The notes beneath the pieces were generated by a model, which ran no database searches, was not told the origin of the DNA, and worked only from the letters and a program-made list of their open reading frames with translations. Shown piece by piece: positions 9,001 through 61,072 of a DNA stretch of 64,000 nucleotides (position 1 is the first letter of the stretch; each line of letters starts with the position of its first letter). The translations under genes and the position numbers were made by a program. Location of the stretch: IMG/VR virus record IMGVR_UViG_3300023313_000005, positions 1 through 64,000 of that record; one strand, given 5' to 3'. This stretch comes from a virus.

Positions 9001-12000
9001 TTTATATGAAGCATATTTAAATTTAGAAAGTCGCGAATATAATAGAGAGGGCATATCTAAAAATTTACCTGAGATTAATGATGATATGTTAAAGACGAAT
9101 TTAAATAAAGATATTAATAATTTAACAGAAAATGAGATATTAAATCAATTAGCTGTATTAGAACAATTTGAATACGCAATGTTCTTAGGGGAAAAATTAG
9201 CTGATTTTTCTAAATCAATAAAATTCGCAAAAGAGTTACCTGTATTTGTTAAAGATATTAAATCTAATTTAGAATTATGGAATACGGTTAAATCTAAATT
9301 TATAGTTAATACTGAAAATATAGAAAAGAGATTACCTCACTTATATGAAGGGGGTAATACATTAGCAATGTTAAATGATATAATCGCAGAAGTGTATGAT
9401 ATACATGGCGAAAATTCATATGCTTTTCTTAATCAATTAAAAGAGGTATTTAATATTAAAATTAAATATAATTCTTTTGAAAATACTGAAGAATTAAAAA
9501 AAGAATTGGTTAAATATATTATATCAGGTATTGACTTATTAGATGAAATATTTGAAACTCCTCCATCAAAAATAGGTGCTAAATCATATAATAATATTGC
9601 AACGTGGAATAGAGAATTAATTCAACAACTATTAGATGAATTTTCTAAATTACCAAATAATATATTAATTAATTATTTAAATATACGTAATAATAAAATT
9701 AGTTTTACAGGAGGTGGTGATTTAAATGCTTCCCAACTTGTTGATTTTGAAGATGCTTTTTTAGAATTATCTGAATCTTTGCAACAAAAACTTATAAAAT
9801 ATGAGCTATTAAATAATGGGACATTATTTGGTACCAGTAATTTAAGTAGTATTATCCCAGGTGATATATTACAAGAAGCCAATAATGAAATAATACGTCA
9901 ATTTAAAAAATTACTTCCTTCATTACAAACTAATATACTTGAAACAGAAGAAGGTAAAGTGATTAAATTAGAAAATACTAATAATCATTTAGATTTTTTA
10001 ATTCAGGTAGCTCTTAATAACTCTAAACAATTACCGTATGTTTCAGTAAAAGCGGAAAAAGAAACTAAATTTTTAGCGGGGGTTACTGAACAAGGACTTT
10101 ATTATGATCTTAAATTTTTAAATCCTCAAACCAAAAGCGGTTTTAAATATTCTAAATCAGCATTTCCCAAATTTATAAAAAGAACATATAATGAAACATC
10201 TGAGGTAGTTTATATGCGAGTTACAGATCCTTTAACACACGAAGTGTTATATCAAAAAATAGGATTTGGAAGAAAACACAAAATAAATATTCGTACCAAA
10301 AATGTAAATACTGTTGAAAAAAATGCAATAGAATCTGCTTTTTCAGGTGCTCCTTATTTTAAAATAAAGAGTCACGATAACACCACATTTAATTCAACTC
10401 ATGAATTATCTAAAAATGAAATTGTATATTTGTATGTTGATGATAACAGGTTAGATGCGGAAAGTTATGAAATTGTAAAAGCAGTTAAGCGATATGATAT
10501 GATGGATGAGTTTTTAGGGTATATGTATACTGTAAAAAAAGTAAAAAGTAATCCATCTAGTAAGACATCTAGAGTATTTAACTTAGAAAGTAAAAGAATA
10601 AATGTAGATATAGTCGAAAATATTAACGAAGGGGATCATCTTGAATTAAATGAATTGTACGAATTGGTTTATAATTCAGAAGATGCGGGTTTAATATCTA
10701 GACTTGATGCTTTGAAAGGGTTACTTCCTGAAGGAATTAAAATAAAAGTAGTAAAACAATCAGATATTAAGGGCGAGGCTTCAGCATTTGCAGGATTTTC
10801 TACAGAAGAAGGACACTTTATAGTATTTGGTGATAAGAGTATTAGTTCACATAGTATAGTTCATGAATTAACACATATAGCATTATATAATTTAATAGAT
10901 AATTATATTAAAGTTGATAAAAGATATATAACAGATAAGCAATATTCATTAATGAGTAAATTAGAAGATATATTTTATTCATTACGAAATCACCCCAATT
11001 TAAAAGGAGAATATGGTTTAACAAATTTACATGAATTTATTTCTGAAGTAATGTCTAATAGTGAATTTAGAGAAAAACTATCTAATATTAATCACTATGA
11101 AAATAATAATCGTATTTCTCTTTTAGACAAAATTCTTAATTTTATAAAACAATTATTAGGGTTTGATTCTAAAATATCTAATGAGAGTATAGTTTCAGAT
11201 TCTGTATTAATGGTAAGTGATAAAATATTACAAGAGGTAATAACATCATATAAGGGTAATATTAAATCTAATTCTTCTTTTACTGCTAATTTAGAGTCAA
11301 ATACAGAAGACGATTCTGTAGATAATAACATAAAAGAATTAATAGAAAAATTAAAAACTGATATTACTAATAGAGATAAAGACGCTACAGTAGGGATAGA
11401 GAATGGAGAAGAAGCCGATTATTACATTGTTAATGGCGAAAAGATACCTAGGGTTCACACGGTTGTTTCAGAGTTCTCTAACGCCTTTAAAAATAAGACC
11501 GGATCTATTGCAGAAAGGGCTGCTAATAAATATTGGATAGAGGGTATAGATCATGACACTAAATTAAATACTGATTTAGGAGAAATGACCTATGAAACTT
11601 ATGTAGAATATAAAGATAAAGAAATAAAGGATAATAAATTACGTGGTAAAATAAACCATAAAATATTAGAGACAGCCGGAATGAATGAGACGGAAACTAT
11701 GAAAGCTATGCAAGATATTAAAGATAAATTAGCTGAAATAGGGATGTCTATAATGCCTTTCCAATGGTTATTTAAAAATAAAGAAACTATATTAGAAAAA
11801 TATGGTATTAATATTAAAGACGACGTATTATTATCAGAAAAAACAATTTATTCTACGCTTTTAAATTTAGTAGGTACTCCTGATTTAGTATCCATAGATA
11901 AATTTGGTAGGTTAAGTATTACTGATTGGAAAACAGGAAGTGCATTTAATGTGGAATTTGTTAATACCATAATGAAATATGGTGATCAAGTTATAGATGT

Positions 12001-34550: not shown

Positions 34551-34574
34551 AGAAAGGGGAATTACCCCCTTTCT
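34551..34574 (-). terminator. Terminator between array A unit and DNA polymerase unit
   Basis: Hairpin with 9-base arms AGAAAGGGG / CCCCTTTCT followed on the minus strand by a T-rich run. It closes the transcription unit that holds array A and isolates it from the replication unit. Confidence 0.8.
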
Positions 34575-34612: not shown

Positions 34613-34632
34613 AAGAACATGTACGTTCTTTA
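34613..34632 (-). terminator. Second hairpin at the end of the array A unit
   Basis: Perfect inverted repeat AAAGAAC / GTTCTTT overlapping the stop codon of the membrane protein gene, followed on the minus strand by an AT-rich tail. Probably a weak terminator or 3'-end stabiliser. Confidence 0.45.
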
Positions 34633-35016
34633 ATCTTTTCTTTTTTTTATTTTAATATTATGAATACGTGAACATACTCTTAAAAATGAAACATCGTCAT
34701 CCTCAATCCAATATTTTATTAATAGTCTAGATTGTTTACTACTAATATGAAAAATATTACTTAATTTTAATATTAATATATAATCATCTAATTTAGAATT
34801 ATTATCTATGTAATTCCAAATTTCATCAGGATAAAATCGTATTTCTGAATAATGATTATAGTAATAAATTAAATATAGTATTGCTATTAATAAAAAAGTT
34901 ATAATTATTCCAATCATTAATTTATTGTTTTTTATGTTTAATAAATTACATTTAAATAAAATTTTAATTTTGTATCTATCATAATATATTTTTATAATGA
35001 ATTGAGTTCTTTCCAT
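34630..35016 (-). CDS. Single-pass membrane protein closing array A
   Basis: A 128-residue protein with a strong hydrophobic segment at about 34-54 (MIGIIITFLLIAILYLIYYY), then a basic C-terminus ending in KIKKRKD. The start at 35016 overlaps the last array gene by 25 bases; the Met at 34917, directly at the membrane segment, is an equally good start. It is the last gene of the array A unit. Not recognised. Confidence 0.6.
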   Translation of the reverse strand: MERTQFIIKIYYDRYKIKILFKCNLLNIKNNKLMIGIIITFLLIAILYLIYYYNHYSEIRFYPDEIWNYIDNNSKLDDYILILKLSNIFHISSKQSRLLIKYWIEDDDVSFLRVCSRIHNIKIKKRKD

Positions 35017-35228
35017 TTTCCCATAGACATAGACCCTTTATAACTATATTTTAATCCGTATCCACTTCCCCAATTAGTACCTTTTCCACTTCCCTCTCCA
35101 GACCCATTCCCTATTCCGCCTGTTGAACAACATCCACTACCATCCATATATCTATGTGTATAAAGATATTCTATATTATTCATATCTATAAGTATATTGT
35201 CTAATCTATCTATTGTAAAATCTATCAT
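34992..35228 (-). CDS. Array A gene 18: short Gly-rich MID-family protein
   Basis: A 78-residue member. The head MIDFTIDRLDN keeps the family start, but the first half is ordinary sequence; Gly/Ser runs (NGSGEGSGKG) fill the middle. It has adjacent cysteines (GCCST). It starts 8 bases after the previous member ends. Divergent last copy. Confidence 0.65.
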   Translation of the reverse strand: MIDFTIDRLDNILIDMNNIEYLYTHRYMDGSGCCSTGGIGNGSGEGSGKGTNWGSGYGLKYSYKGSMSMGKWKELNSL

Positions 35229-35236
35229 ATTATTTT

Positions 35237-35494
35237 TTAATAAATTGAACTATCTAAAATTAAAAATTCATTCCCAGTTCCAAGATCATGTCCCGTCCTT
35301 TCACTTTCACCATAATCTGCTATGTATAAATTTTCATGCTGAGTATTTACTAAACTACAATCTATCCATCCTCCGTATTTATTTCCTCCACCTGTTCCGT
35401 GTCCCATAGAATTAATTTTTGGTGCGGTAGAACTTAAAAATAATACCCCTCTAGGATAACATTCCCCATAATCATTAATATTATAATCTATCAT
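35237..35494 (-). CDS. Array A gene 17: MID-family protein, less repetitive
   Basis: An 85-residue member beginning MIDYNINDYGE. Only a short Gly-rich core (GHGTGGGNKYGG) remains; the rest is mixed sequence. A 4-base overlap links it to the previous member. It may show what a non-repetitive fold of this family looks like. Confidence 0.65.
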   Translation of the reverse strand: MIDYNINDYGECYPRGVLFLSSTAPKINSMGHGTGGGNKYGGWIDCSLVNTQHENLYIADYGESERTGHDLGTGNEFLILDSSIY

Positions 35495-35745
35495 AATATA
35501 CTAATTTCTTCTCCTTTTCCGATATCATAATGATAAATATATTTATCATTATATGTACTTTCATATCCACATCCATATTTAGTTTCGTACGTGCATTGTA
35601 TATATCCTAACCCACACCCATTTCCATTTTTCTCTCCATACTCAGATGAATTTCCACTTCCGTGCCCATTTCCATATCTATAACCTTGTCCATTTCCTCT
35701 TCCCCCATGTCCCGTTCCTTTATTATTAAGTCTTGTATCTATCAT
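35491..35745 (-). CDS. Array A gene 16: Gly-rich MID-family protein
   Basis: An 84-residue member: MIDTRLNNKG head, Gly at nearly every second residue to about residue 50, then a Tyr-rich tail with two cysteines and the common -IL end. ATGA overlap with the next gene. Confidence 0.7.
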   Translation of the reverse strand: MIDTRLNNKGTGHGGRGNGQGYRYGNGHGSGNSSEYGEKNGNGCGLGYIQCTYETKYGCGYESTYNDKYIYHYDIGKGEEISIL

Positions 35746-35939
35746 AATATATTTATATATTCATGTCCACATCCTTTTTCATCTATATATCCTATTCCAT
35801 ATCCACTTCCATATCCATCTTTTATTCCCTTTCCTAATCTATCTCCACCATCATCTCCCACTCCTTGTCCATATCCATACCCATTGGCATTCCCGAATTC
35901 ATACCAATTTCCATTATTATTAATATTATAATCTACCAT
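35742..35939 (-). CDS. Array A gene 15: Gly-rich MID-family protein
   Basis: A 65-residue member starting MVDYNINNNG (Ile2 to Val) with GYGYGQGVGDDGGD-type repeats and one Cys near the end. It overlaps the previous member by 7 bases and the next by 4. Confidence 0.7.
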   Translation of the reverse strand: MVDYNINNNGNWYEFGNANGYGYGQGVGDDGGDRLGKGIKDGYGSGYGIGYIDEKGCGHEYINIL

Positions 35940-36238
35940 AATATATTGTTTATATATTCACATCCATCTCCATATCCACTTTCATGATTGTTTCCATATC
36001 CATTTCCGCACCCTTTTCTACAGCTATATCCATATCCATTTCCAAGTCCATCTCCATCTCCACATCCGTATCCTTTTCCATATCCTTTCCCATTTCCATA
36101 TCCATTTCCATTTCCATCTCCATCTCCAAGTCCATCTCCATCTCCATCTCCAAACCAATGCCTATATTTATTTCTATTACTATTTCCACATACTATTCTA
36201 TATCCTTTTTCATTAATATCAAGTGTTGCGTCAATCAT
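35933..36238 (-). CDS. Array A gene 14: longest Gly-rich MID-family protein
   Basis: A 101-residue member: MIDATLDINEKG head, then about 60 residues of alternating Gly with Asp, Asn, Tyr or Lys. It has several spaced cysteines. Third codon positions vary within the repeat (GGA/GGG/GGT, TAT/TAC), more than a fresh DNA expansion would show. Confidence 0.7.
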   Translation of the reverse strand: MIDATLDINEKGYRIVCGNSNRNKYRHWFGDGDGDGLGDGDGNGNGYGNGKGYGKGYGCGDGDGLGNGYGYSCRKGCGNGYGNNHESGYGDGCEYINNILW

Positions 36239-36474
36239 AATATATCAATTTCATTTCCATTTCCGTTAATATATTTATTTATATAGTCATATACATAACC
36301 ATATCCGTATCCATATCCATTTTCATTATTATCATTATTTTCTTCTCCGTATCCTTCTCCGTAATCATCCCCATAACCGTCTCCATGTCCACCTCCATAT
36401 CCATGTCCTTTTTTATATCCAACATCATCAGAGAATATATAACATCCCCTATTATTATATTCTATATCTATCAT
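36235..36474 (-). CDS. Array A gene 13: Gly-rich MID-family protein
   Basis: A 79-residue member: MIDIEYNNRG head, GHGYGGGHGDGYGDDYGEGYG core, a short acidic/Asn stretch and -IDIL end. It begins 3 bases after gene 12 ends and overlaps gene 14 by 4. Confidence 0.7.
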   Translation of the reverse strand: MIDIEYNNRGCYIFSDDVGYKKGHGYGGGHGDGYGDDYGEGYGEENNDNNENGYGYGYGYVYDYINKYINGNGNEIDIL

Positions 36475-36477
36475 AAT

Positions 36478-36711
36478 TTATAAAACAAAAGGTTCTTTCC
36501 ATTTCCCACGGTTATATCTATTCAATCCTATATTTTCACCATCTCCGACTCCTTGTCCATTACCTTTTCCACATTTATCTCCCCATCCACTACCTTCTCC
36601 ACGTCCATTACCTTGACCATATTTATTACCTACTCTTATATCATAATGCATTCCATTATCAATTAAATGTGATTTTTTATATCCATTATCATTATATTTT
36701 GTATCTATCAT
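36478..36711 (-). CDS. Array A gene 12: Gly-rich MID-family protein
   Basis: A 77-residue member: MIDTKYNDNG head, a non-repetitive 15-residue insert, then GQGNGRGEGSGWGDKCGKG-type core. Ends KEPFVL instead of the usual -IL. ATGA overlap with gene 11. Confidence 0.7.
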   Translation of the reverse strand: MIDTKYNDNGYKKSHLIDNGMHYDIRVGNKYGQGNGRGEGSGWGDKCGKGNGQGVGDGENIGLNRYNRGKWKEPFVL

Positions 36712-36848
36712 AATATATCATTTTCATACCCGTCCCCATACCCGGTTTCATTGTCATGTCCATCTTCACCACCATCTCCATGCCCATATTCATTTCCAAA
36801 CCCATTTTCATATTCTATTCTATTATTAGTAAATGCTGTATCTATCAT
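36708..36848 (-). CDS. Array A gene 11: shortest Gly-rich MID-family protein
   Basis: A 46-residue member, easily missed by length cut-offs: MIDTAFTNNRIEYENGFG head, then alternating Gly with His/Asp/Glu/Asn, ending ENDIL. Four-base overlaps on both sides place it exactly in the chain. Confidence 0.7.
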   Translation of the reverse strand: MIDTAFTNNRIEYENGFGNEYGHGDGGEDGHDNETGYGDGYENDIL

Positions 36849-37078
36849 AATGCGTTATTTTCATATCTTATTCCATAATTATTATATTTATAATTATATT
36901 CCTCTCCTCCACCATGTTTATTTCCATATCCATTCGCATGTCCTTTTCCATACCCATTTCCGTCTTCAAATCCATATCCACTTCCTTCTCTATATCCCCC
37001 TCCTTCTCCATTTCTATATCCTATTTCATGTCCTATTTTATGTCCTGTTCCAATATTATTAAAATTTACATCTATCAT
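36845..37078 (-). CDS. Array A gene 10: Gly-rich MID-family protein
   Basis: A 77-residue member. The Met at 37078 (MIDVNFNNIG) is the family start; an upstream in-frame Met at 37126 lies inside the previous gene and is rejected. Core has Gly with His, Lys, Glu and Tyr; Tyr/Asn-rich tail. Confidence 0.7.
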   Translation of the reverse strand: MIDVNFNNIGTGHKIGHEIGYRNGEGGGYREGSGYGFEDGNGYGKGHANGYGNKHGGGEEYNYKYNNYGIRYENNAL

Positions 37079-37338
37079 GATATAGTATTTACATATCCGT
37101 AACCATTTCCATCTCCATATCCGCATCCATCTATATATCCGTATCCATTTGCATATCCATATCCGTATCCTTTCCCATTTTCATATCCGTCCCCACATCC
37201 ATATCCATTAATATCCCCATCCCCATTTCCATATCCATATCCATATCCATATCCATGTTTACTCTCACATCCGTGTCCTTTTCCGTATCCGTATCCTATT
37301 CCACTATCATTATTATTATTAAATTTTACATCTATCAT
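37075..37338 (-). CDS. Array A gene 9: Gly-rich MID-family protein
   Basis: An 87-residue member: MIDVKFNNNN head, then almost pure Gly-x repeat with Tyr most common, and several Cys. Lacks the -IL end (VNTIS). ATGA overlaps on both sides. Confidence 0.7.
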   Translation of the reverse strand: MIDVKFNNNNDSGIGYGYGKGHGCESKHGYGYGYGYGNGDGDINGYGCGDGYENGKGYGYGYANGYGYIDGCGYGDGNGYGYVNTIS

Positions 37339-37514
37339 AATACATCGTTTATATCCTCATTTCTATCGTTTCCGTATCCATCTCCACATCCATTCCCGTA
37401 TCCATCCCCATATCCATATCCATATCCACTTCCATTTCTATCTCCTTGCCCATATTCGTATCCTCTTCCATATCCATATTCTATTCCGATATTACTAAAA
37501 TTTGTATCTATCAT
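37335..37514 (-). CDS. Array A gene 8: Gly-rich MID-family protein
   Basis: A 59-residue member: MIDTNFSNIGIEYG head, GYGYGYGDGYGNGCGDGYG core, NDVL end. Four-base ATGA overlaps with genes 7 and 9 confirm the frame. Confidence 0.7.
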   Translation of the reverse strand: MIDTNFSNIGIEYGYGRGYEYGQGDRNGSGYGYGYGDGYGNGCGDGYGNDRNEDINDVL

Positions 37515-37729
37515 AATATACGAATTTCTATTCCTATTCCATTTCTATTTTCATGATTATATTCTTCTCCAAACATAAATCTTTTTCCAAATCCTTTTTT
37601 GAGTTCACTATCATACCATTTTGTATTTTCACTCCATTTTCCAAGTCTAGTACTATATCCTGTTCCAGATTCCTCCCCTAATCTTTCTAAATAACTAAAT
37701 CCCTTATTGTTAAAAGTTCTATCTATCAT
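37511..37729 (-). CDS. Array A gene 7: MID-family member without the repeat
   Basis: A 72-residue member: MIDRTFNNKG head and IEIRIL end are kept, but the body is ordinary charged/aromatic sequence with few glycines. It shows that the head, the end and the ATGA linkage are conserved apart from the repeat. Confidence 0.7.
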   Translation of the reverse strand: MIDRTFNNKGFSYLERLGEESGTGYSTRLGKWSENTKWYDSELKKGFGKRFMFGEEYNHENRNGIGIEIRIL

Positions 37730-37896
37730 AGTATAGTATAATTATTTCCATTCCCTTCTCCATATTCATTACCATGTCCTCCACCATGTCCGTGACCATA
37801 CCCATTTCCATAATTATCTCCACATGACAATCCATATTTTATTTCAAATGTTATTCCATATCCATTTCCATCAGTATTGATATTCATATCTATCAT
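37726..37896 (-). CDS. Array A gene 6: Gly-rich MID-family protein
   Basis: A 56-residue member: MIDMNINTDG head, an ordinary stretch (ITFEIKYGLSCGD), then GNGYGHGHGGGHG and a YTIL end. ATGA overlaps on both sides. Confidence 0.7.
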   Translation of the reverse strand: MIDMNINTDGNGYGITFEIKYGLSCGDNYGNGYGHGHGGGHGNEYGEGNGNNYTIL

Positions 37897-38105
37897 AATA
37901 TATCATTTATTTTTTCATAACTATGTCCATATCTATATCCATTTCCTTTACCATATCCATTCCCATTTCCACATCCATTTTTATAATCGTCCCCATTTCT
38001 ACTTCCGGATCCATATCCATATCCTCTTCCGTCTCCATAGCCATTTCCAAATCCAGATCCGTATCCATATCCAACACCATTAATATTAAGTTTTGTATTT
38101 ATCAT
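37893..38105 (-). CDS. Array A gene 5: Gly-rich MID-family protein
   Basis: A 70-residue member starting MINTKLNINGVG (Asp3 to Asn), Gly-Tyr/Asn/Asp/Ser core, ending KINDIL. It starts 13 bases after gene 4 ends, one of the few gaps in the chain. Confidence 0.7.
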   Translation of the reverse strand: MINTKLNINGVGYGYGSGFGNGYGDGRGYGYGSGSRNGDDYKNGCGNGNGYGKGNGYRYGHSYEKINDIL

Positions 38106-38118
38106 AGTACATAAATTT

Positions 38119-38397
38119 TTATTCTATATATATATCATCTCCTATACCATATCCATCTCCCGCACCATTCTTATATCCTTTCCCATTTCCATATATATTT
38201 CCTTTTCCATTTCCACATCCATTCCCGTCTCCACATCCATTTTTATCTCCATATCCACATCCATTTCCAAACCCATTCCCGTACCCTATTCCATTTTCAG
38301 ACTCGCTTCCATATCCATATCCTAATTTACTTCCATACCCATACCCTTCTCCATATTCGTATTCTATTCCGGTATTGTTAAAATATGTATCTATCAT
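38119..38397 (-). CDS. Array A gene 4: Gly-rich MID-family protein
   Basis: A 92-residue member: MIDTYFNNTGIEYEYG head, long Gly core with periodic Cys (NGCG three times), ending DIYIE. ATGA overlap with gene 3. Confidence 0.7.
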   Translation of the reverse strand: MIDTYFNNTGIEYEYGEGYGYGSKLGYGYGSESENGIGYGNGFGNGCGYGDKNGCGDGNGCGNGKGNIYGNGKGYKNGAGDGYGIGDDIYIE

Positions 38398-38594
38398 AAT
38401 ATATTATTTTTATCTCCATATCCATAACCATGTCCATTTCCATTTCCATTTCCATATTTCTTTCCGTATTCATATGTATTTCCATACCCATATGCATTTC
38501 CTTTTCCATAATTATATCCAGTATTAGAACTATATCCATCTCCAAATCCATTTCTATATTCTATTCCAGTATTATTAAAACTTGTGTCTATCAT
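38394..38594 (-). CDS. Array A gene 3: Gly-rich MID-family protein
   Basis: A 66-residue member: MIDTSFNNTGIEYRNG head (very like gene 4), GYGNTYEYGKKYGNGNG core, KNNIL end. ATGA overlaps on both sides. Confidence 0.7.
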   Translation of the reverse strand: MIDTSFNNTGIEYRNGFGDGYSSNTGYNYGKGNAYGYGNTYEYGKKYGNGNGNGHGYGYGDKNNIL

Positions 38595-38818
38595 AGTATA
38601 TCATTTATACATCCATATCCACTTCCATCCTCATATCCATTTCCATCCCCACATCCTTCTCCGTATCCATTTCCGTTTCCGTATTCATTGCCATATCCAT
38701 TTCCATCCCCATTTTCATTTCCACATCCATTTCCGTACCCATATCCGTATCCTATTCCATTTTCATATCCATATTCATCTTCACCATATCCATTAATATT
38801 AAGTTTTGTATCTATCAT
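38591..38818 (-). CDS. Array A gene 2: Gly-rich MID-family protein
   Basis: A 75-residue member: MIDTKLNINGYG head (very like gene 5), regular Gly-x core with Asn, Tyr, Asp and Cys, INDIL end. ATGA overlaps on both sides. Confidence 0.7.
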   Translation of the reverse strand: MIDTKLNINGYGEDEYGYENGIGYGYGYGNGCGNENGDGNGYGNEYGNGNGYGEGCGDGNGYEDGSGYGCINDIL

Positions 38819-39012
38819 AATATATTTTCATTTCCGCGTCCATACCCATATCCGTATCCATCTCCATTTCCTTGTCCATGTCCATGTCCATATCCCCCAT
38901 ATCCATTTCCGTGTCCCCTTCCATCTCCATTTCCATGTCTATTCCCAGATCCATATTGACTATCATAACTGATTTTATGATGTCCTGTACTATTAAAATA
39001 TATATCTATCAT
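38815..39012 (-). CDS. Array A gene 1: Gly-rich MID-family protein
   Basis: A 65-residue first member: MIDIYFNSTG head, His-containing stretch, then GNGYGGYGHGHGQG core and NENIL end. It follows the hairpin at 39027-39052 by 15 bases on the minus strand, so the array starts as its own unit or by regulated read-through. Confidence 0.7.
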   Translation of the reverse strand: MIDIYFNSTGHHKISYDSQYGSGNRHGNGDGRGHGNGYGGYGHGHGQGNGDGYGYGYGRGNENIL

Positions 39013-39026
39013 AACTCATAAAATTA

Positions 39027-39052
39027 AAAGGGGAGATATTACTCTCCCCTTT
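39027..39052 (-). terminator. Hairpin at the head of array A
   Basis: Ten-base perfect arms AAAGGGGAGA / TCTCCCCTTT with a 6-base loop, between the DUF6948-like gene and array A. It can act as terminator of the module or attenuator of the array. A weaker hairpin occupies the same place before array B. Confidence 0.7.
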
Positions 39053-40583: not shown

Positions 40584-40826
40584 TTATTTTTGTAAAATAC
40601 CAAAAGAATCTCCGTTTCCTTTTGAAGTTGATAAATTTAATATTATTCCAGTTCCTACATCAGATTCATATTCAAGTCTATGTATATTTCCTTTTCCATT
40701 TCCTTTACCATCACCAATTCCTATCCCATCACCATCACCATATCCAGTTCCTTGGTTATATCCTAAACTATCTATTAATGAATCTAAACCTCCACGTCCA
40801 GTTTTTTTAAATTTATAATCTATCAT
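40584..40826 (-). CDS. Detached MID-family protein (Gly-rich)
   Basis: An 80-residue member: MIDYKFKKTGRGG head, GYGDGDGIGIGDGKGNGKG core, but a longer non-repetitive C-terminal half. It lies upstream of the array A module, so the family is found on both sides of it. It overlaps the next MID gene by 14 bases. Confidence 0.65.
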   Translation of the reverse strand: MIDYKFKKTGRGGLDSLIDSLGYNQGTGYGDGDGIGIGDGKGNGKGNIHRLEYESDVGTGIILNLSTSKGNGDSFGILQK

Positions 40827-41016
40827 TATTAAATGTAATAACTATTTTTTCTATTCCATATCCAGGTCTAGATATTTGTTCTTTGCATTCGTTATTTAAA
40901 TCATGTGTAACTGAAGCTTCAATTATAATATTTCTGATAATTTTATGTTGACTCACATAATAAGAAACTTCAGAATCTACAAAACTTCCGAAATTAGTAA
41001 AGTTTATATCTATCAT
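40813..41016 (-). CDS. Detached MID-family protein without repeat
   Basis: A 67-residue member starting MIDINFTNFGSF at 41016 (an upstream Met at 41058 would run into the previous small gene). The body is ordinary mixed sequence with one Cys. With array genes 7 and 17 it represents the non-Gly-rich version. Confidence 0.6.
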   Translation of the reverse strand: MIDINFTNFGSFVDSEVSYYVSQHKIIRNIIIEASVTHDLNNECKEQISRPGYGIEKIVITFNNDRL

Positions 41017-43492: not shown

Positions 43493-44080
43493 TTATTTGT
43501 TTTTGATTGCATTTTCTAAATGTAAAAAGTACGCTTTATATGCTTTGTACATTGCTTCTATTCTGATAAATTCTTCTGTACCTCTTTTTGTTTCAAATTC
43601 GTCATCACCCTTAAACCATTCATCCCATTGTTCAATAGTTTTGCATTCACATCCAATTTTTATTTTATTATTCACTATACCAAAACTCCATTTTGAGTAA
43701 ATAGGCATAATTGCATTACTTATATCTGCTCTACGAAGGTTTACCCCGTCAAAGTTTACTCCACGAAGGTCTGATTCACGAAGGTCTGCTTCATCGAGGA
43801 TTGATTCACAAAGGTTTGCTCCACGAAGGTCTGCTCTGTAAAGGTTTGCTCCACGAAAATCTACTCTACGAAGGTTGGTTTCATAAAGATTTGCTCCACG
43901 AAGGTTAGCTTCATAAAAGTTGGCTTCAAAAAGGTTGGCTCCACAAAAATTTGCTTCAAAAAGATTGGCCCCATGAAAGTCTGCCCCACGGAGGTCAGCT
44001 CTACGCAAGTAGGCTCCTATTAATGTATCGCCTTCAATTTCTTTTAATACTTTTCCGTTAAAATCTTTAATTTGTATCAT
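43493..44080 (-). CDS. Pentapeptide-repeat protein
   Basis: A 195-residue protein with about 18 consecutive A(D/N)LxG-type pentapeptides (residues ~24-120: LRRADLRGADFHGANLFEAN...), which form a right-handed square beta helix. Some members mimic DNA and bind gyrase; others are structural. The C-terminal ~75 residues are not repetitive. It lies 55 bases after the last array B gene and is probably in the same unit. Specific function unknown. Confidence 0.85.
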   Translation of the reverse strand: MIQIKDFNGKVLKEIEGDTLIGAYLRRADLRGADFHGANLFEANFCGANLFEANFYEANLRGANLYETNLRRVDFRGANLYRADLRGANLCESILDEADLRESDLRGVNFDGVNLRRADISNAIMPIYSKWSFGIVNNKIKIGCECKTIEQWDEWFKGDDEFETKRGTEEFIRIEAMYKAYKAYFLHLENAIKNK

Positions 44081-44135: not shown

Positions 44136-44288
44136 TTACAATTCATAACTTAATATATGTTTATATTTAATATGAGTATAAGGCGTAAACATTGAATTAA
44201 ATTTATTTGCAATCATTATAGTAAATTTTAAATTTGGATAATCAAGTCTAGTACGTGCTTTACAATCTTTGAGTATTACCAGTTTCAT
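44136..44288 (-). CDS. Array B gene 9 (50 aa)
   Basis: Starts MKLVILKDCKARTRLD and ends YEL. Shares M-K-L-(I/V)-x-L-K-(N/D)-C-K and PYTHIKYK with genes 7 and 8. Only member ending in TAA. Closes the chain. Confidence 0.65.
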   Translation of the reverse strand: MKLVILKDCKARTRLDYPNLKFTIMIANKFNSMFTPYTHIKYKHILSYEL

Positions 44289-44434
44289 AGTTTATAAGTT
44301 TTTTTAGATTCGTATATAATATGACTATAGGGTAAATATACTGAATAATATCTAGTAGATATTATTATATTGTATGGTTCATTATAATAACTAATACTTT
44401 TTGCTTTACAATTTTTAAGTATAATTAATTTCAT
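44285..44434 (-). CDS. Array B gene 8 (49 aa)
   Basis: Starts MKLIILKNCKAKS, has LPYSHIIYESKKTYKL end. ATGA overlaps with genes 7 and 9. Confidence 0.65.
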   Translation of the reverse strand: MKLIILKNCKAKSISYYNEPYNIIISTRYYSVYLPYSHIIYESKKTYKL

Positions 44435-44583
44435 AGCTCATAAAAATTTTTAGATTTGTATCTAATACGACTATAAGGTAAATATAATGAATGATATGCA
44501 TCAGATATTATTATATCATATGGCATAAAATATTGACTGAGTGTATTTATTGTTTTACAATCTCTAAATATTATTAACTTCAT
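44431..44583 (-). CDS. Array B gene 7 (50 aa)
   Basis: Starts MKLIIFRDCKTIN, has LPYSRIRYKSKNFYEL end. Closest relative is gene 8. ATGA overlaps on both sides. Confidence 0.65.
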   Translation of the reverse strand: MKLIIFRDCKTINTLSQYFMPYDIIISDAYHSLYLPYSRIRYKSKNFYEL

Positions 44584-44723
44584 GGCCAATAAAAGGTTAT
44601 ACTTTTATAATATATCTTAAAATAAGGAGTATAAAATATCTTATATCTAAAATCTATATAAAGGTTAGAATCATCTGGTTTATTAGTATGAAATTCACAA
44701 TTTTTAATTACAATTAGTCTCAT
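44580..44723 (-). CDS. Array B gene 6 (47 aa)
   Basis: Starts MRLIVIKNCEFHTNK, Tyr/Phe-rich body (TPYFKIYYKSITFYWP). ATGA overlaps on both sides. Confidence 0.62.
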   Translation of the reverse strand: MRLIVIKNCEFHTNKPDDSNLYIDFRYKIFYTPYFKIYYKSITFYWP

Positions 44724-44860
44724 AAGTAATAAGTAGTTATAGTTTTAAATTTAATTTTATAGCGAGAAAAACAAAATATATTATTTTGTAATACTATAGG
44801 GTAAGTTACGTATTTAAGTTCATTAGCTAGTTTACAGTCTTTAAGTGTTATTAGTTTCAT
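44720..44860 (-). CDS. Array B gene 5 (46 aa)
   Basis: Starts MKLITLKDCKLANEL, ends TTYYL; body YKIKFKTIT. ATGA overlaps on both sides. Confidence 0.62.
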   Translation of the reverse strand: MKLITLKDCKLANELKYVTYPIVLQNNIFCFSRYKIKFKTITTYYL

Positions 44861-45003
44861 ACCATATGAATTTTCATTTTTTCACCTTTTATACAAAAAT
44901 TAAAAGTGTATAATGTTATAAATTGATAATCTAAAAGTACACTATAAAATATAGATGAATGATAATCATGTATTACACAATTTTTTATTATTATTAATCT
45001 CAT
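44857..45003 (-). CDS. Array B gene 4 (48 aa)
   Basis: Starts MRLIIIKNCVIHDYHSS; C-terminal end differs (GEKMKIHMV). ATGA overlaps on both sides. Confidence 0.6.
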   Translation of the reverse strand: MRLIIIKNCVIHDYHSSIFYSVLLDYQFITLYTFNFCIKGEKMKIHMV

Positions 45004-45155
45004 AATTGATACATTTTACAATTTCCAAATTTTACATTTTTAATACTTATTAATGCATATGAAGTAGTAGATACATGATATTTATAGCATATAAGATCTA
45101 CAAAAGGTAAATATTGAGTAAAATCTTCATTTATAGGAATTACTATTAAATTCAT
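45000..45155 (-). CDS. Array B gene 3 (51 aa)
   Basis: Starts MNLIVIPINEDF; most divergent head, lacking the early Cys, but with later cysteines (ICYKY, GNCKMYQL). ATGA overlaps on both sides. Confidence 0.6.
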   Translation of the reverse strand: MNLIVIPINEDFTQYLPFVDLICYKYHVSTTSYALISIKNVKFGNCKMYQL

Positions 45156-45301
45156 AACTCATATTTGTTAGAATAACTATACATAATACAAATATCACTT
45201 AGGTATAAAAGATAATTATTACTACATAGATCTGAATTTAATACAATATTTGAAATAGAAGAAGTAATATCGGCATATTTATTTAATAGTACTAAAGTCA
45301 T
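45152..45301 (-). CDS. Array B gene 2 (49 aa)
   Basis: Starts MTLVLLNKYADI and ends YSNKYEL; same length as gene 1 and the closest pair in the array. ATGA overlaps on both sides. Confidence 0.65.
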   Translation of the reverse strand: MTLVLLNKYADITSSISNIVLNSDLCSNNYLLYLSDICIMYSYSNKYEL

Positions 45302-45447
45302 AATTCATATCTATTAGAATATTTATATGTAATGCAAATATTACCTATATATAAAAGATAAATATCACTATATAGATCTGAAATTAACCTATCGTTTGAT
45401 GAAAGCATAAAAATATCATCATATTTATTTAATATTACTAAAGTCAT
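45298..45447 (-). CDS. Array B gene 1 (49 aa)
   Basis: Starts MTLVILNKYDDI and ends YSNRYEL. The Met at 45447 is chosen because it aligns with gene 2; an upstream Met (45507) would run through the hairpin. First gene of the chain. Confidence 0.65.
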   Translation of the reverse strand: MTLVILNKYDDIFMLSSNDRLISDLYSDIYLLYIGNICITYKYSNRYEL

Positions 45448-45503: not shown

Positions 45504-45731
45504 TCAATCAAATGCATCCTGTAACATTTTAGTTACAGGGTTCAGCTCTTGTTGAGTATATTTAATGATGTTTTCACTTTCTGTTTTTAATGTCCCATGC
45601 TCGCCATGGGTTACTATTCCGTTACTACCTGTTTTGATGAGAAGAGCACCTTTATACTCCTCACTAACAATGTCCCCTTTTACCTCTAAAGTATGAGGAT
45701 GGGTAGACTTTTGAATTATTAATTTTTCCAT
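45504..45731 (-). CDS. Module protein 2 (75 aa), paralogue of 39506-39772
   Basis: Starting at MEKLIIQKS it aligns with its paralogue from the fifth to the last residue: KGALLIKTGSNGIVTHGEHG, then QQELNPVTKML. The in-frame Met at 45770 would overlap the upstream gene by 35 bases and adds no matching sequence. Paired with the larger module protein upstream. Function unknown. Confidence 0.65.
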   Translation of the reverse strand: MEKLIIQKSTHPHTLEVKGDIVSEEYKGALLIKTGSNGIVTHGEHGTLKTESENIIKYTQQELNPVTKMLQDAFD

Positions 45732-45735
45732 TATA

Positions 45736-46554
45736 TTAAGATTGTGCTGTGAGTAATCCAAAATACTCATCAGCTGTTAAACTTCTTTTTTTGGGGTTGT
45801 AAGATATTAAATCTTTTAGTTCTTCAATATCTTTATCATATTCTGTGATAAAAACATCTCCTTGACGTTTTATCTCTTTGATGTAAGGAATAACTGATTC
45901 ATGAAAGACTGCCGTAGATGCTATGGCTGTTAAAGCACTATTGTCTTCAGGTTTATTTACCCAAAGATAATGCTCTTCATTAGTAGTGGTACACCAGCAC
46001 TTAACTACATATAGTTTATTAGTACTAAATTTAGTTCCATCAACTTCTAGTAATTCATAAACTACATGGTAATCTTTCATACCGGTAAAATTACCTTCAT
46101 AATCGAATGTTTTATGAGTTACTTCCTTACCTCCTACATCTATAGTAGTATAACCCATACCCTCTATCAATTCTTTTACATCCAACAATTCAAATACTAA
46201 AATTTGAAAGGCATTATTTTTGATTTCGAATGCCTCTTTAAATGTTATAGGAGGAATATCCTCCCACATATCTAATAGTATCTCTACTTTAGACACACAA
46301 CTTTTAAAAATGTTAGCACCTTCTATTTCTTCTCCTTCGGCTATTTTCTTGTCAATTTTTTCAGGGAGCTCTCGGAATTTGTTTATAATAGTATTTTCAA
46401 ATTCTTTCTTAGTTCCCTTCAACTTATAATATTGGATAAGTTCTTTTTTTGTAATACCTATCCAAATATCAGTTGTTGCCTCGTATTTTAATTCTGATGT
46501 TACCTCTATGATATGGAGGTTTTTTAACTTACGAAGTTTATTTTCATCTTTCAT
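45736..46554 (-). CDS. Module protein 1 (272 aa), DUF6745-like, paralogue of 39789-40550
   Basis: Shares with its paralogue a mid segment around FKEAFEIKNNAFQ, then YHVVYELLEVD, VKCWCTTTNEEHYLWV, SALTAIAS, IKRQGDVFITE and the end FGLLTAQS. The N-terminal ~90 residues are more charged. The same order (protein 1, protein 2, hairpin, small-gene array) recurs at 39-40.5 kb. The DUF6745 resemblance is from memory. Confidence 0.65.
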   Translation of the reverse strand: MKDENKLRKLKNLHIIEVTSELKYEATTDIWIGITKKELIQYYKLKGTKKEFENTIINKFRELPEKIDKKIAEGEEIEGANIFKSCVSKVEILLDMWEDIPPITFKEAFEIKNNAFQILVFELLDVKELIEGMGYTTIDVGGKEVTHKTFDYEGNFTGMKDYHVVYELLEVDGTKFSTNKLYVVKCWCTTTNEEHYLWVNKPEDNSALTAIASTAVFHESVIPYIKEIKRQGDVFITEYDKDIEELKDLISYNPKKRSLTADEYFGLLTAQS

Positions 46555-57329: not shown

Positions 57330-57867
57330 GTTTGATACCAACTCTAACTTTTGGAAGATGAATCCCCAGTTTAAAATACTGGAGCCGTTTAAATCTTTAT
57401 ATATCAAAGATAAAACTGCGGGGAAGAAATACACTTCTAAAGTAATGTGGGCGGTAGCTTTTTTATTAGACCCTTCTAAGGATAACATTTACAGAAATGT
57501 CCCTACAGATGAACGTAAAGAACTCATCTGTAGGGATTTTTTAGGTTATTCTGTATCTAAATTCGATAAGTACCAAAATATAATGGATTTTTATAAAAAA
57601 CAAGTTTTATCTCAAGCTGCTAAAAGTTTATTAGTATGGGAGGACATTATGACAGATAGAGAAAAGACATTAAAAGGTATGTATAAAGAAGCATTAAAAA
57701 ATAAAGATATTGATTTAATAGTCGAATTGGATAAATTATTAGCTACTACTCCTAAATATTATATGGATTATGATAAAATAAAAAAGACATTTTTAGAAGA
57801 AGAAGAATCCAATAATAGGGGTAAAGGGAATAGAGTCAAATCATTAACAGATACAGGTGAGATCTAA
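57313..57867 (+). CDS. Putative small terminase subunit / terminase partner
   Basis: A 184-residue helical protein directly upstream of the large terminase (11-base overlap), the place of the crAss-like small terminase candidate. Contains MNPQFKILEPFKSLY and long helices (KALKNKDIDLIVELDKLL). No HTH is obvious; call rests on position and size. Confidence 0.55.
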   Translation: MSVINKFDTNSNFWKMNPQFKILEPFKSLYIKDKTAGKKYTSKVMWAVAFLLDPSKDNIYRNVPTDERKELICRDFLGYSVSKFDKYQNIMDFYKKQVLSQAAKSLLVWEDIMTDREKTLKGMYKEALKNKDIDLIVELDKLLATTPKYYMDYDKIKKTFLEEEESNNRGKGNRVKSLTDTGEI

Positions 57868-60800
57868 ACACATACCTAATTCAAAATTTATTGTAGGGGA
57901 TATACCTGAGTTTAATCCTGTTTCCCAATACTATGAACGACTTACCTGGTGGAAAGAACAGAAACGTAGGTGCATAGAAGGATATTGGGTAGATGGTAAA
58001 TGGTGCCCTGGTGTTTTATATTTTTATATAAATTTTTGGAATATAGAAGTAGAGGCAAGAGAAGGATCATTAGGTAAGGTAATTGGGACTCCGTGGTTTA
58101 GAGATTTAGAGTGGGACAAAGGGTATGTTATGGTAGAAGCAAGAGGGTTTTCCGGATTTACTAATGATGATGAATATACTTGTAACATTGCAGTATTAAA
58201 AAAAGAAGAATTACATAACGACGGATTATTAGATTTATATATAAAAAACGGATATGTTCGTAAGCAGGATTTAAGTAAAGAATATGTTCCCGCACGAGAA
58301 TATTTACGAAAAATACATAAAGGTAATTTAGGGAAACCACTATTCCAAAATGAGGCATGTAATGTAGTAGATTTGGAATCTCGCGGAGGAGGTAAAGATT
58401 TAAAATCAACAGAAGTAGTTTATACAGAAACAGGCAAACTACCCATTTCTAAAATCAAAGTAGGTGATCGTATTTTTGGCGCAGATGGTAAATTGACAAC
58501 AATAACTTCTCGTAAAGATTTTTATGATCAGCAACAGTACAGGGTAGTATTCTCTGATGGGAGAAGTATAGAATGTGGAGGAGGGCATTTATGGACAGTG
58601 TATAGTAGAAGTAAGCACGGATACAAGAAAAAAGTATTATCTCTTGATGACATAAGAAAAGATTATAAAATTGGTACACGGGGTGATAGTAGATATTTTG
58701 TACAATTATGCCAACCATTAGAATATTCTGAAAAAGAATTACCAATAGATCCTTATTATTTAGGATTATGGTTAGGTGATGGTAATTCAAATAATACATG
58801 TATAACTTCTGCCGACGAAGAAATAAAGGATAGTATTAAAAAATATGCTGAAGAGTTAGGTATGCGTATGAGCATTAGTTACCCTAACGAAACTGCTTCT
58901 GTTTATAGAATATGTGAATTAAAAAATGGTGTTGAAAATAAACTTATTACAAAATTAAAACAACTAAATGTTTTATATAATAAGCACATCCCTGATATAT
59001 ACTTACATAGTTCCAAAGAACAACGTCTAGAATTATTAAGAGGGCTTATGGATAGCGACGGATATGCGGATGAAAGACATATTGAATTAACTACTAGCTA
59101 TAAAGGCTTACAAAAAACAATTCCCGAACTAATTCATTCATTAGGAATTAGAACAAAAATACGCATCAAAAAGACTACGCATAAAAATAGTCTTAGAATA
59201 TCATTGTTAACAGATTTACGGATATTTAAACTTACCAGAAAACTTAAATTTGTAGGGAAAAATAGATCTAAATTTGCTATTACAAATAGAACAATGAGCG
59301 CTATACGTGAAATTATTCCAACAACCGTGCATCATTCTGTATGTATAAGTGTGGATAATACTGATTCTTTATTTGTAGCGGGCGAAGGTTGTATTGTAAC
59401 ACATAATTCTTTTTGGGGAGGTGGTAATATAGGTCATAATTTCTTATTCGATGGTGCTATTGATTATGATGTATACTTGTCTAAAAAAATGACAGATAAG
59501 CCTTTAACTACACAAACATTAGTAGGTGCTATAGATTCGTCTTTTTCTAAAGATTTGCTTGCTAAATTTAAATTAGGAATGAAGCATTTACCTGGAGCTA
59601 TAGAATATAATAATGAAACATATCCTTCCCCATTATCTATAGATTATACAGGATCATTAATGCCGGGTAAATTCTTAGTATCTACTGCTACTGGTAGTAA
59701 AATACATCATAGATCATTTAAAGATAATCCTTTAGCCGCAAACGGTACCAGGCCATCATTATCATATTTAGAGGAGGTCGGGTTCATGGATAATATAGAA
59801 GAATCGTTAGGGGCAATGAAAGAATGTGTTGCATCTGGAGAAAGACAATTCGGAAGTATTTACATGTTTGGTACAGGAGGTCTATTTAAAGGGATGGCAT
59901 CAATGCATATGAGTAATATATTTTATAATCCTTCCGATTATAATTGTTTGGAATTTGATGATGAATGGGAAGGGCGTGGTAAAATTGGTTATTTTATACC
60001 TGCGTATAGAACACTTAATGGATTTAAAGAAACTGAAGATTATATAACGAATGATGAAAAGGCATTAAATTTTTTATTAAAAGAACGTAAATCAGTATTA
60101 AAAAATAAAATTAAATATGCATCGGAAGTAATTAATAGACCTATAAAACCTTCTGAAATATTCTTTTCTACAGAAGGTACTTTCTTCCCATTAACTGAAC
60201 TTAAACAGAGTCAGGAGAACTTACTAAAAAATGATAAATTATTAAACGCATCATGGAAAGGATTTGTTGTAATATCAGAAGATGATACATTAATATGGAA
60301 AAATACGGATGATATGCCTATAACACAATGGCCCTATAAAGCAGGTAAAATGGGGGAAGGCTGTATAGAAATATTTGAAATGCCTGTAAAAAATGTAGAA
60401 AATGAGGTAGTAAATAATATATATATTGCAGGATGTGACCCGGTTGACGATGATGGCTTTGAAGGGTCATTACAATCATCATTTATTATGAATAGGCTTA
60501 CGGGTAGAATAGTTGCTGAATACACAGCACGTCATGAAAGGGCAGACCAATATTATGAGAATTTAAGAAAATTACTTTTATTTTTTAACGCAAAGTGTAA
60601 TTATGAAAATAACAAAAAGGGTTTATTTCAGTATTTTCATAATATGAATTGTTCATATCTATTATCAGAAACCCCTAAATTATTAAGGGATCAAGGCATG
60701 GTTAGAACAGTAAGCATTGGTAACAAGTCGTATGGTACACCTGCTAATCAATATGTTAATAGATGGGCTAGAGATTTAATAAAGAAATGGTTATTAGAAC

Positions 60801-61072
60801 CTGCTATTAACAAAGATAACAACATAAATGCCGATACTATACGTTCTATTGCATTAATAGAAGAATTAATAAGATGGACAGATAAGGGTAATTTTGATAG
60901 GGTATCAGCATTGGGGATGTTAATGATATTAAAAGAAGAAAAATATAAAAACGCAGTAAGTTTAGAAACCACACATCAATCAATATTTAATAGATGGTCA
61001 GGTAGATTAAAGAAGAAAGGTATCGGTTATAAAAAAGCTATTACGAAACAAAATTTTTTACAGAATAATTAA
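57857..61072 (+). CDS. terL: Large terminase subunit, interrupted by an intein
   Basis: A 1,071-residue precursor starting with GTG. Extein parts: residues 1-180 and 518-1071 (734 residues after splicing), with GGGK | SFWGGG forming the ATPase Walker A across the intein, Walker B as LSYLEEVGF, and a nuclease Asp cluster near CDPVDDDG. The rejoined protein is a crAss-type terminase that cuts and packages DNA into heads. Without splicing the P-loop is broken, so packaging depends on it. The portal follows. Confidence 0.92.
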   Translation: MRSKHIPNSKFIVGDIPEFNPVSQYYERLTWWKEQKRRCIEGYWVDGKWCPGVLYFYINFWNIEVEAREGSLGKVIGTPWFRDLEWDKGYVMVEARGFSGFTNDDEYTCNIAVLKKEELHNDGLLDLYIKNGYVRKQDLSKEYVPAREYLRKIHKGNLGKPLFQNEACNVVDLESRGGGKDLKSTEVVYTETGKLPISKIKVGDRIFGADGKLTTITSRKDFYDQQQYRVVFSDGRSIECGGGHLWTVYSRSKHGYKKKVLSLDDIRKDYKIGTRGDSRYFVQLCQPLEYSEKELPIDPYYLGLWLGDGNSNNTCITSADEEIKDSIKKYAEELGMRMSISYPNETASVYRICELKNGVENKLITKLKQLNVLYNKHIPDIYLHSSKEQRLELLRGLMDSDGYADERHIELTTSYKGLQKTIPELIHSLGIRTKIRIKKTTHKNSLRISLLTDLRIFKLTRKLKFVGKNRSKFAITNRTMSAIREIIPTTVHHSVCISVDNTDSLFVAGEGCIVTHNSFWGGGNIGHNFLFDGAIDYDVYLSKKMTDKPLTTQTLVGAIDSSFSKDLLAKFKLGMKHLPGAIEYNNETYPSPLSIDYTGSLMPGKFLVSTATGSKIHHRSFKDNPLAANGTRPSLSYLEEVGFMDNIEESLGAMKECVASGERQFGSIYMFGTGGLFKGMASMHMSNIFYNPSDYNCLEFDDEWEGRGKIGYFIPAYRTLNGFKETEDYITNDEKALNFLLKERKSVLKNKIKYASEVINRPIKPSEIFFSTEGTFFPLTELKQSQENLLKNDKLLNASWKGFVVISEDDTLIWKNTDDMPITQWPYKAGKMGEGCIEIFEMPVKNVENEVVNNIYIAGCDPVDDDGFEGSLQSSFIMNRLTGRIVAEYTARHERADQYYENLRKLLLFFNAKCNYENNKKGLFQYFHNMNCSYLLSETPKLLRDQGMVRTVSIGNKSYGTPANQYVNRWARDLIKKWLLEPAINKDNNINADTIRSIALIEELIRWTDKGNFDRVSALGMLMILKEEKYKNAVSLETTHQSIFNRWSGRLKKKGIGYKKAITKQNFLQNN
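58397..59407 (+). other. Intein (class 3 type) with LAGLIDADG endonuclease in TerL
   Basis: Residues 181-517 of the precursor (337 residues). The first residue is Asp, not Cys or Ser. Block B has HLWTVYS, block F SVCISV, block G VTHN followed by Ser+1: this is the W-C-T set of class 3 inteins, which use the block F Cys as first nucleophile. Two LAGLIDADG-type blocks, GLWLGDG and GLMDSDG, lie between. The site is right after the Walker A Lys. Confidence 0.85.

Follow-up and report, generated by a model that had tools for sequence, protein, structure and literature searches.

Array A is a run of tandem genes for short proteins in which glycine alternates with other residues (Gly-x proteins). 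It lies in a 64,000-nucleotide window, positions 1 to 64,000 of the virus record IMGVR_UViG_3300023313_000005, whose full length is 75,553 bases. The array is real and coding, and it is a large contiguous expansion of a widespread phage module in which a DUF6948-superfamily protein of ~100 aa is followed by a short Gly-x protein, usually in overlapping frames. Judged on the open-access literature, this module is apparently undescribed. The source phage is crAss-like, since the portal protein encoded in the window shares 39% identity with its counterpart in Bacteroides phage crAss001. The array that a sequence-only reading of the window had described stands; it is not peculiar to this phage, the underlying pair of DUF6948 and Gly-x genes being widespread.

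The DUF6948 and Gly-x gene pair

The protein encoded directly upstream of array A scores 69 bits against DUF6948 (PF22253), above the curated cut-off of 27, and the array begins 66 nt past the stop codon of its gene on the same strand, so that the window itself contains the module. A search with four aligned DUF6948 sequences yielded at least 574 relatives among viral contigs; the best 80 loci were kept, and in 78 of them DUF6948 was confirmed by a hidden Markov model (HMM). A short Gly-x gene lies within 3 kb of DUF6948 in 66 of the 78 loci, always on the same strand (66/66), these counts coming mostly from metagenomic contigs found by similarity, from which near-identical ones were only partly removed. 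The coupling is often exact: in 49 loci, the two genes overlap by 13 nt, counted from the Gly-x start to the end of the DUF6948 stop, and within this overlap the conserved Trp-Lys codons of DUF6948 are read in the other frame as Met-Glu of the Gly-x protein. The window pair departs from this common arrangement, having an extended DUF6948 C-terminus and a terminator-like hairpin between the genes. The fourth residue of the N-terminal "head" in single-copy Gly-x genes is hydrophobic in 60 of 60 cases; since the overlap with the DUF6948 stop forces this residue, it provides no independent evidence of function.

In the reverse direction, the search used a DNA pattern for alternating Gly-[Y/N/D/H] that took no account of neighbouring genes; it matched at least 120 stretches, of which 40, each with a short Gly-x gene preceded by 450 nt or more of sequence, served as the sample. 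A DUF6948-superfamily gene was found directly upstream on the same strand in 28 of the 40, mostly with an overlap of 1–19 nt, and near by (not directly upstream) in three further loci. Many of these partners are not DUF6948 itself but belong to two further groups of ~100-aa proteins, and the three groups are linked by profile comparison (hhalign E values of 1.7e-7, 2.2e-6, and 4.5e-15). Neither DUF6948 nor a Gly-x gene occurs in 22 polymerase loci (381 kb) taken as a control, and the PolB relatives that served as controls carry no array. Among 80 loci bearing A1, another gene from the vicinity of array A (see below), short Gly-x genes occur only where DUF6948 is also present. The search of 198 Bacteroidota genomes gave no DUF6948 matches, with the controls equally silent, and is hence uninformative. 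A sequence search of solved structures returned no relatives of DUF6948, and its kinship with A2, the small protein encoded next to A1, was rejected on comparison.

The pair is present in Pectobacterium phage Koroua, podovirus MW202898, Iodobacter phage PhiPLPE, and Chlorobiaceae phage CV-1-33. GenBank leaves the Gly-x gene of PhiPLPE (L333 ~1170-1410; L numbers designate loci outside the window) unannotated, and in CV-1-33 it gives a wrong frame (MAMAMAL...) over an 86-aa Gly-x open reading frame (ORF; L331 4270-4530) with the same 13-nt overlap. Although present in hundreds of viral contigs, the pair has seemingly gone unremarked, apparently because the Gly-x gene is short, of low complexity, and in some records left without annotation or assigned an incorrect frame, as in these two phages. 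Those Gly-x genes of relatives that were compared with PHROG and NCBIfam had no match. The earlier statement that no phage system of this form had been described agrees with the open-access literature, in which no matching system was found: no paper names DUF6948 or DUF6745 (the family discussed below for A1), and no description of the Gly-x partner, the 13-nt overlap, or the array form was encountered. The pairing rule makes the module directly testable in isolated phages.

Selection on the Gly-x bodies

The array A strand is purine-rich, of low complexity, and open in all three frames (e.g., ORFs of the MDMDMEM type), so long ORFs are weak evidence of coding here. The codon test considered positions with Gly two codons away on both sides and counted single-base variants of the majority Gly codon, with third-base versus first- or second-base variants expected at 1:2. 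The observed numbers were 35 versus 21 in array A (p = 7.5e-6), 170 versus 10 in array L054 (p = 1.1e-67), and 107 versus 59 in 62 single-copy Gly-x genes (p = 2.6e-16). As to stop codons, the TAN codons between glycines are exclusively TAY (TAT/TAC), 69 in array A and 507 in single-copy genes, with zero TAR (TAA/TAG) in both sets. Stop avoidance is partly built in, whole reading frames having been selected, and the third-base excess is for this reason the stronger test. The majority Gly codon differs by phage for the same protein pattern, being GGA in array A, GGT in L062, and mixed in L054. Gly-x bodies are selected at the protein level. With 4-base ATGA overlaps at 13 of the 17 gene junctions, the third-base excess and the stop avoidance bear out the earlier claim of a coding, translationally chained protein array.

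The opposite possibility, a non-coding low-complexity DNA expansion, would suit the tandem hexamer-like repeats, the three open frames of the array strand, and the conservation of the heads at the nucleotide level. Its probability is negligible in view of the silent-site variation in array A and its relatives, the stop avoidance, the use of other Gly codons for this protein pattern elsewhere among phages, and the exact frame overlaps.

Layout and heads of array A

The ORFs agree with the earlier description of 18 back-to-back minus-strand genes, mostly joined by ATGA overlaps (the other junctions are one 7-nt overlap and three short gaps), with genes 6, 8, and 11 each below 60 codons. The termini are less uniform than described. 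A MID start is found in 16 of the 18 genes, the exceptions being one MIN and one MVD; the -IL ending ascribed to almost all genes was overstated, occurring in 10 of 18 (a final L in 14). The bodies of genes 7, 17, and 18 have just 14–19% Gly. The array also exceeds the limits first given for it, as two further MID-headed genes lie upstream and the remnant of a head follows the last gene (Table 1). A degenerate MID-head pattern matched 13 times in the 75.5-kb record, always on the array A strand, with no match of the reversed-pattern control; the exact DNA pattern of the head gave no match in viral contigs. As for the diversity-generating family that was among the possible roles first proposed, similarity between bodies is independent of position in the array. 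In codons 4–10 of the head, variability at the third base does not exceed that at the first, and because third bases are as conserved as the others, conservation of the head could stem from recent duplication or from a translation-start element.

Arrays in other phages

Most DUF6948 loci have a single Gly-x gene. Expanded loci comprise the window (18 genes plus the two headed ones), L054 (19–20), L330 (~9–10), and L062/L063/L064 (5–6), array A and L054 being the largest among the loci examined; smaller expansions are found in L136 and L199 (5 each), L141 (4), and L146 and L257 (3 each). As regards variation in copy number, the relatives that bear on it are just the near-identical contigs of one other array (L062/L063/L064). 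The clearest arrays have one fixed head each, namely MID..., MEIKSYGKN, MNIKISKG, MGLKAFLKFG, MLKIKNIYSFG, and MKEKHNMNNNG. The MNIKIS head of L136 is the same as in L062, and the heads of L330 are merely loosely alike. Heads are common within one phage or near kin and not across unrelated phages. With the fixed heads differing from phage to phage, the only general features are the Gly-x body, its partner, and the way in which the two are coupled; the body varies in length from 30 to 200 aa with the alternation maintained. No shared functional domain can be seen in the fixed head: it differs in other arrays, its third bases are equally conserved, and its residue 4 in single-copy genes is forced.

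A1 and A2 as partners of repeat-protein genes

Array A and the unrelated array B are each preceded by paralogues of A1 and A2 (Table 1). All eight junctions of array B are 4-nt overlaps; the array carries 146-bp tandem DNA repeats, and those of its members that were tested had no family match. Single- and two-sequence queries revealed no close relatives of the window A1, for which a broader alignment was needed; this gave 100 viral relatives (80 kept), with A2 alongside A1 in most. In Flavobacterium caseinilyticum, A1–A2 is followed by a leucine-rich repeat (LRR) gene, and in three further genomes of the same phylum or family, A1 is fused behind LRR-like repeats. In certain phages, A1–A2 lies beside arrays of MORN-type genes, recognised by HMM and Pfam MORN_2, that have fixed heads and tails of their own.

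Phage contigs with tandem MORN-type arrays adjoining A1–A2 are L038, L039, L040, L041, and L043. In L039 and L041, many of the MORN-type genes are joined by an 11-nt overlap in which the same bases read YYAR* and MQDK. Repeat proteins of another type (EYDTNGN.IYYENS.GYW...), with no Pfam match, flank A2 at L047:10542-10889 and 11262-11606.

No homologue of the window portal protein was detected in 11 other A1-bearing records, which may be fragments, and the data are consistent with the presence of A1–A2 in unrelated phages. Most loci with DUF6948 and Gly-x genes lack A1; A1–A2 is therefore an added, not an essential, partner of that module. Across the phages in question, the A1–A2 pair accompanies repeat-protein genes more generally, as a second partner.

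A1 has an invariant Cys and near-invariant Cys and Trp residues, and its structure is predicted with a pLDDT of 93.6. Foldseek gave no PDB match below E 0.001 for A1 or A2, nor did a sequence search of solved structures find any for either. Pfam assigned no family to A1a and only unrelated weak matches to A1b, neither reaching the PF20530 (DUF6745) cut-off; 9 of 49 A1 homologues match this family weakly (best 6.7e-5), and among viral structures, the A1 model comes closest to a protein of Microcystis phage LMM01 that belongs to DUF6745 (probability 0.99, E 0.03). A1 may thus be a distant relative of DUF6745. A PADLOC scan of 49 A1 members produced one match, at E 0.008, and no credible defence-system match.

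A1 figures in two explanations of the arrays. In one, the head would act as leader and the Gly-x body as a core that A1 or DUF6948 modifies, as in ribosomally synthesised and post-translationally modified peptides, or else the pair would be a toxin–antitoxin unit. Within each array, the head is fixed and the body variable, which is in keeping with this explanation, as are the overlap of small gene pairs and the conserved Cys and Trp residues of the nearby A1, but it remains quite improbable: the heads are unrelated across phages and partly forced by gene overlap, the repeat begins within six residues in some Gly-x proteins, A1 is missing from most loci of the pair, and its fold has no enzyme-like match. 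It might also be supposed that, as in polyimmunity loci, each repeat protein binds its own host target, a toxin or a protein of defence, while A1–A2 and DUF6948 serve them all as adaptors. Such loci include a class made up of homogeneous arrays of small paralogues, and others contain LRR genes (PMC3482391), which recalls A1–A2 standing beside MORN, LRR, and Gly-x genes and the fusion of A1 to LRR-like repeats in bacteria. Such a repertoire of neutralisers is nevertheless improbable, as Gly-x bodies lack binder-like surface diversity and recur with similar composition in unrelated phages, A1 has no credible PADLOC match, and most loci hold one gene rather than a repertoire.

Possible function of the Gly-x proteins

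The non-Gly residues of single-copy Gly-x genes are Ser (38%), Tyr (27%), and Asp (23%). Tyr is flanked by Gly on both sides in 507 of 586 cases in these genes, but only in 69 of 163 in array A. Within 5 kb of the pair, genes for ERF (8 loci), RecT (8), and a DEAD-type helicase (6) are found, as well as RusA, Gp157, and DnaB, and their recurrence points to early DNA processing, even though none of them was recognised at most of the loci. At L315:10273-12411, a Gly-x tract that starts inside the 13-nt DUF6948 overlap is in frame with a ParB_N/HTH_ParB protein, and at L300:5823-6626, a Gly-x tract runs into a C-terminal region of ~170 aa with no assigned family.

Because the Gly-x pattern is kept by selection, whereas length, order, and head are not, the Gly-x protein probably acts via bulk physical properties and not via a specific folded surface. 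Composition, tolerance of length, lack of hydrophobic stretches, and early neighbours, taken together, make it conceivable, with somewhat less than an even chance, that it acts by multivalent weak contacts rather than by a specific fold. The analogue studied best is the FUS type of domain: Tyr-rich, Gly/Ser low-complexity domains, e.g., that of FUS, undergo reversible condensation through such multivalent contacts (PMC6018615). By analogy, it is tentatively suggested, at a little under even likelihood, that Gly-x proteins are early, cytoplasmic, self-assembling Tyr/Gly low-complexity proteins under the control of their partner. Tyr "stickers" spaced by Gly, Ser, Asp, or Asn would drive the self-assembly; the DUF6948 protein would bind the Gly-x protein to start, tether, or restrain it; and the assembly might concentrate or protect the replication and recombination machinery of the phage. 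In phages with arrays, extra units might supply a higher dose and several compositional grades. In a still broader picture, the gene pair would give phages of many lineages a Tyr/Gly condensate resembling silk or FUS inside the infected cell, in which early replication and recombination would be organised under the control of DUF6948, with the scaffold gene expanded up to ~20-fold in some phages; as a whole, this is unlikely.

Several observations speak against self-assembly of this kind. FUS condensation also uses Arg partners, whereas array A proteins are mostly acidic; the fusion to ParB occurs in just one metagenomic contig; and at most 16 of the 78 loci have ERF or RecT near by. Moreover, the Gly-x pattern is weak or absent in array genes 7, 17, and 18 and in the gene at 40813, and for this reason this phage does not always need a Gly-x body.

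The same tolerance of length and lack of a fixed fold would also suit a tract acting through few side chains, such as a decoy that slips in or occupies the host AAA+ unfoldases (ClpXP, Lon) and so shields phage proteins, the partner delivering or capping it. Poly-Gly and Gly-Ala tracts do impair the grip or release of substrates by ClpX, and Gly-Ser repeats dissociate faster than Gly-Ala ones (PMC9531181). However, the published effect needs an adjoining folded domain, which most Gly-x proteins do not have; their tails differ, with no degron-like tail in common, and both the Tyr enrichment (27%) and the strict alternation would be left unexplained. A jam of host proteases is hence hardly probable.

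Phase separation, one of the roles first proposed, is conceivable. Secreted or virion-bound adhesion, another of them, is very unlikely. Gly/Tyr-rich proteins do act as adhesives in animals, but no hydrophobic or signal-like segment was found in the array A proteins, and the genes are set among early DNA-processing genes.

Genomic context

The features of the region are collected in Table 1. Terminator-like hairpins are frequent in the scanned region (15 sites versus 2.2 expected).

Table 1. Features of array A and its surroundings (positions in the window).
Feature	Position	Strand	Basis or remark
Terminator-like hairpin, downstream of array A	34551..34574	minus	hairpin scan
Small ORF, 95 aa from internal ATG, directly after array A	34630..34917	minus	hydrophobic segment; no family match
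Head remnant of a further unit, 14 codons, MIDTKLKFYLNVIY*	34938..34982	minus	after gene 18
Array A: 18 tandem Gly-x genes, 46-101 codons	34992..39012	minus	ORF list, codon test
Terminator-like hairpin, between DUF6948 gene and array A gene 1	39027..39052	minus	hairpin scan
DUF6948 protein, 135 aa	39079..39486	minus	Pfam PF22253, E 3.8e-19; directly upstream of array A
A2a, small all-beta protein, 88 aa	39506..39772	minus	occurs next to A1
A1a, DUF6745-like, 253 aa	39789..40550	minus	confident predicted fold, without PDB match
MID-headed Gly-x gene, 80 aa, upstream of A1a	40584..40826	minus	ORF/head comparison
MID-headed gene, 67 aa, without Gly-x body	40813..41016	minus	ORF/head comparison
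Array B: nine genes, 46-51 aa, heads such as MKLI.LK.C	44136..45447	minus	directly after A1b-A2b
A2b, 75 aa, A2a paralogue (39% identity)	45504..45731	minus	sequence comparison
A1b, 272 aa, A1a paralogue (34% identity)	45736..46554	minus	sequence comparison

Immediately after array B, a further repeat-protein gene of the region (43493-44080, minus strand) encodes a pentapeptide-repeat protein (Pfam E 4e-33). On the plus strand, a single ORF of 4917 codons occupies 53-14806 and presumably recalls the giant RNA-polymerase-type proteins of crAss-like phages. A long ORF following a GroEL-like gene (57857-61072, plus strand) resembles, by eye only, a large terminase with an intein-like insert.

Comparison with known systems

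DUF6948 has been known only as a domain of unknown function; the window gene is a member, and the family emerges here as the standing upstream partner of Gly-x genes. DUF6745 (PF20530) differs in that the A1 proteins of the window do not match it and that A1 is paired with A2 and repeat-gene arrays. RTX calcium repeats were considered and dropped, the period of Gly-x being 2 residues, not 9. Polyimmunity loci resemble the arrays in organisation only, as tandem small paralogous genes, sometimes with LRR proteins; here, no toxin genes or known immunity families were seen, and the bodies are of low complexity.

Silk fibroin contains GX dipeptide repeats in which every second residue is Gly and x is mainly Ala. 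Glycine at alternate residues is thus common to both, with no homology claimed, while in the phage proteins x is Ser, Tyr, Asp, or Asn rather than mainly Ala, and the proteins are short and apparently cytoplasmic. Were self-assembly borne out, phages would have in this pair a natural, minimal system of low-complexity assembly. From FUS-type domains, to which they have no homology, the phage proteins differ in being stand-alone, largely Gly-alternating, and provided with a dedicated partner; what recalls these domains is Tyr regularly spaced by Gly/Ser, more clearly so in the single-copy genes than in array A, a length that is not fixed, and few hydrophobic residues.

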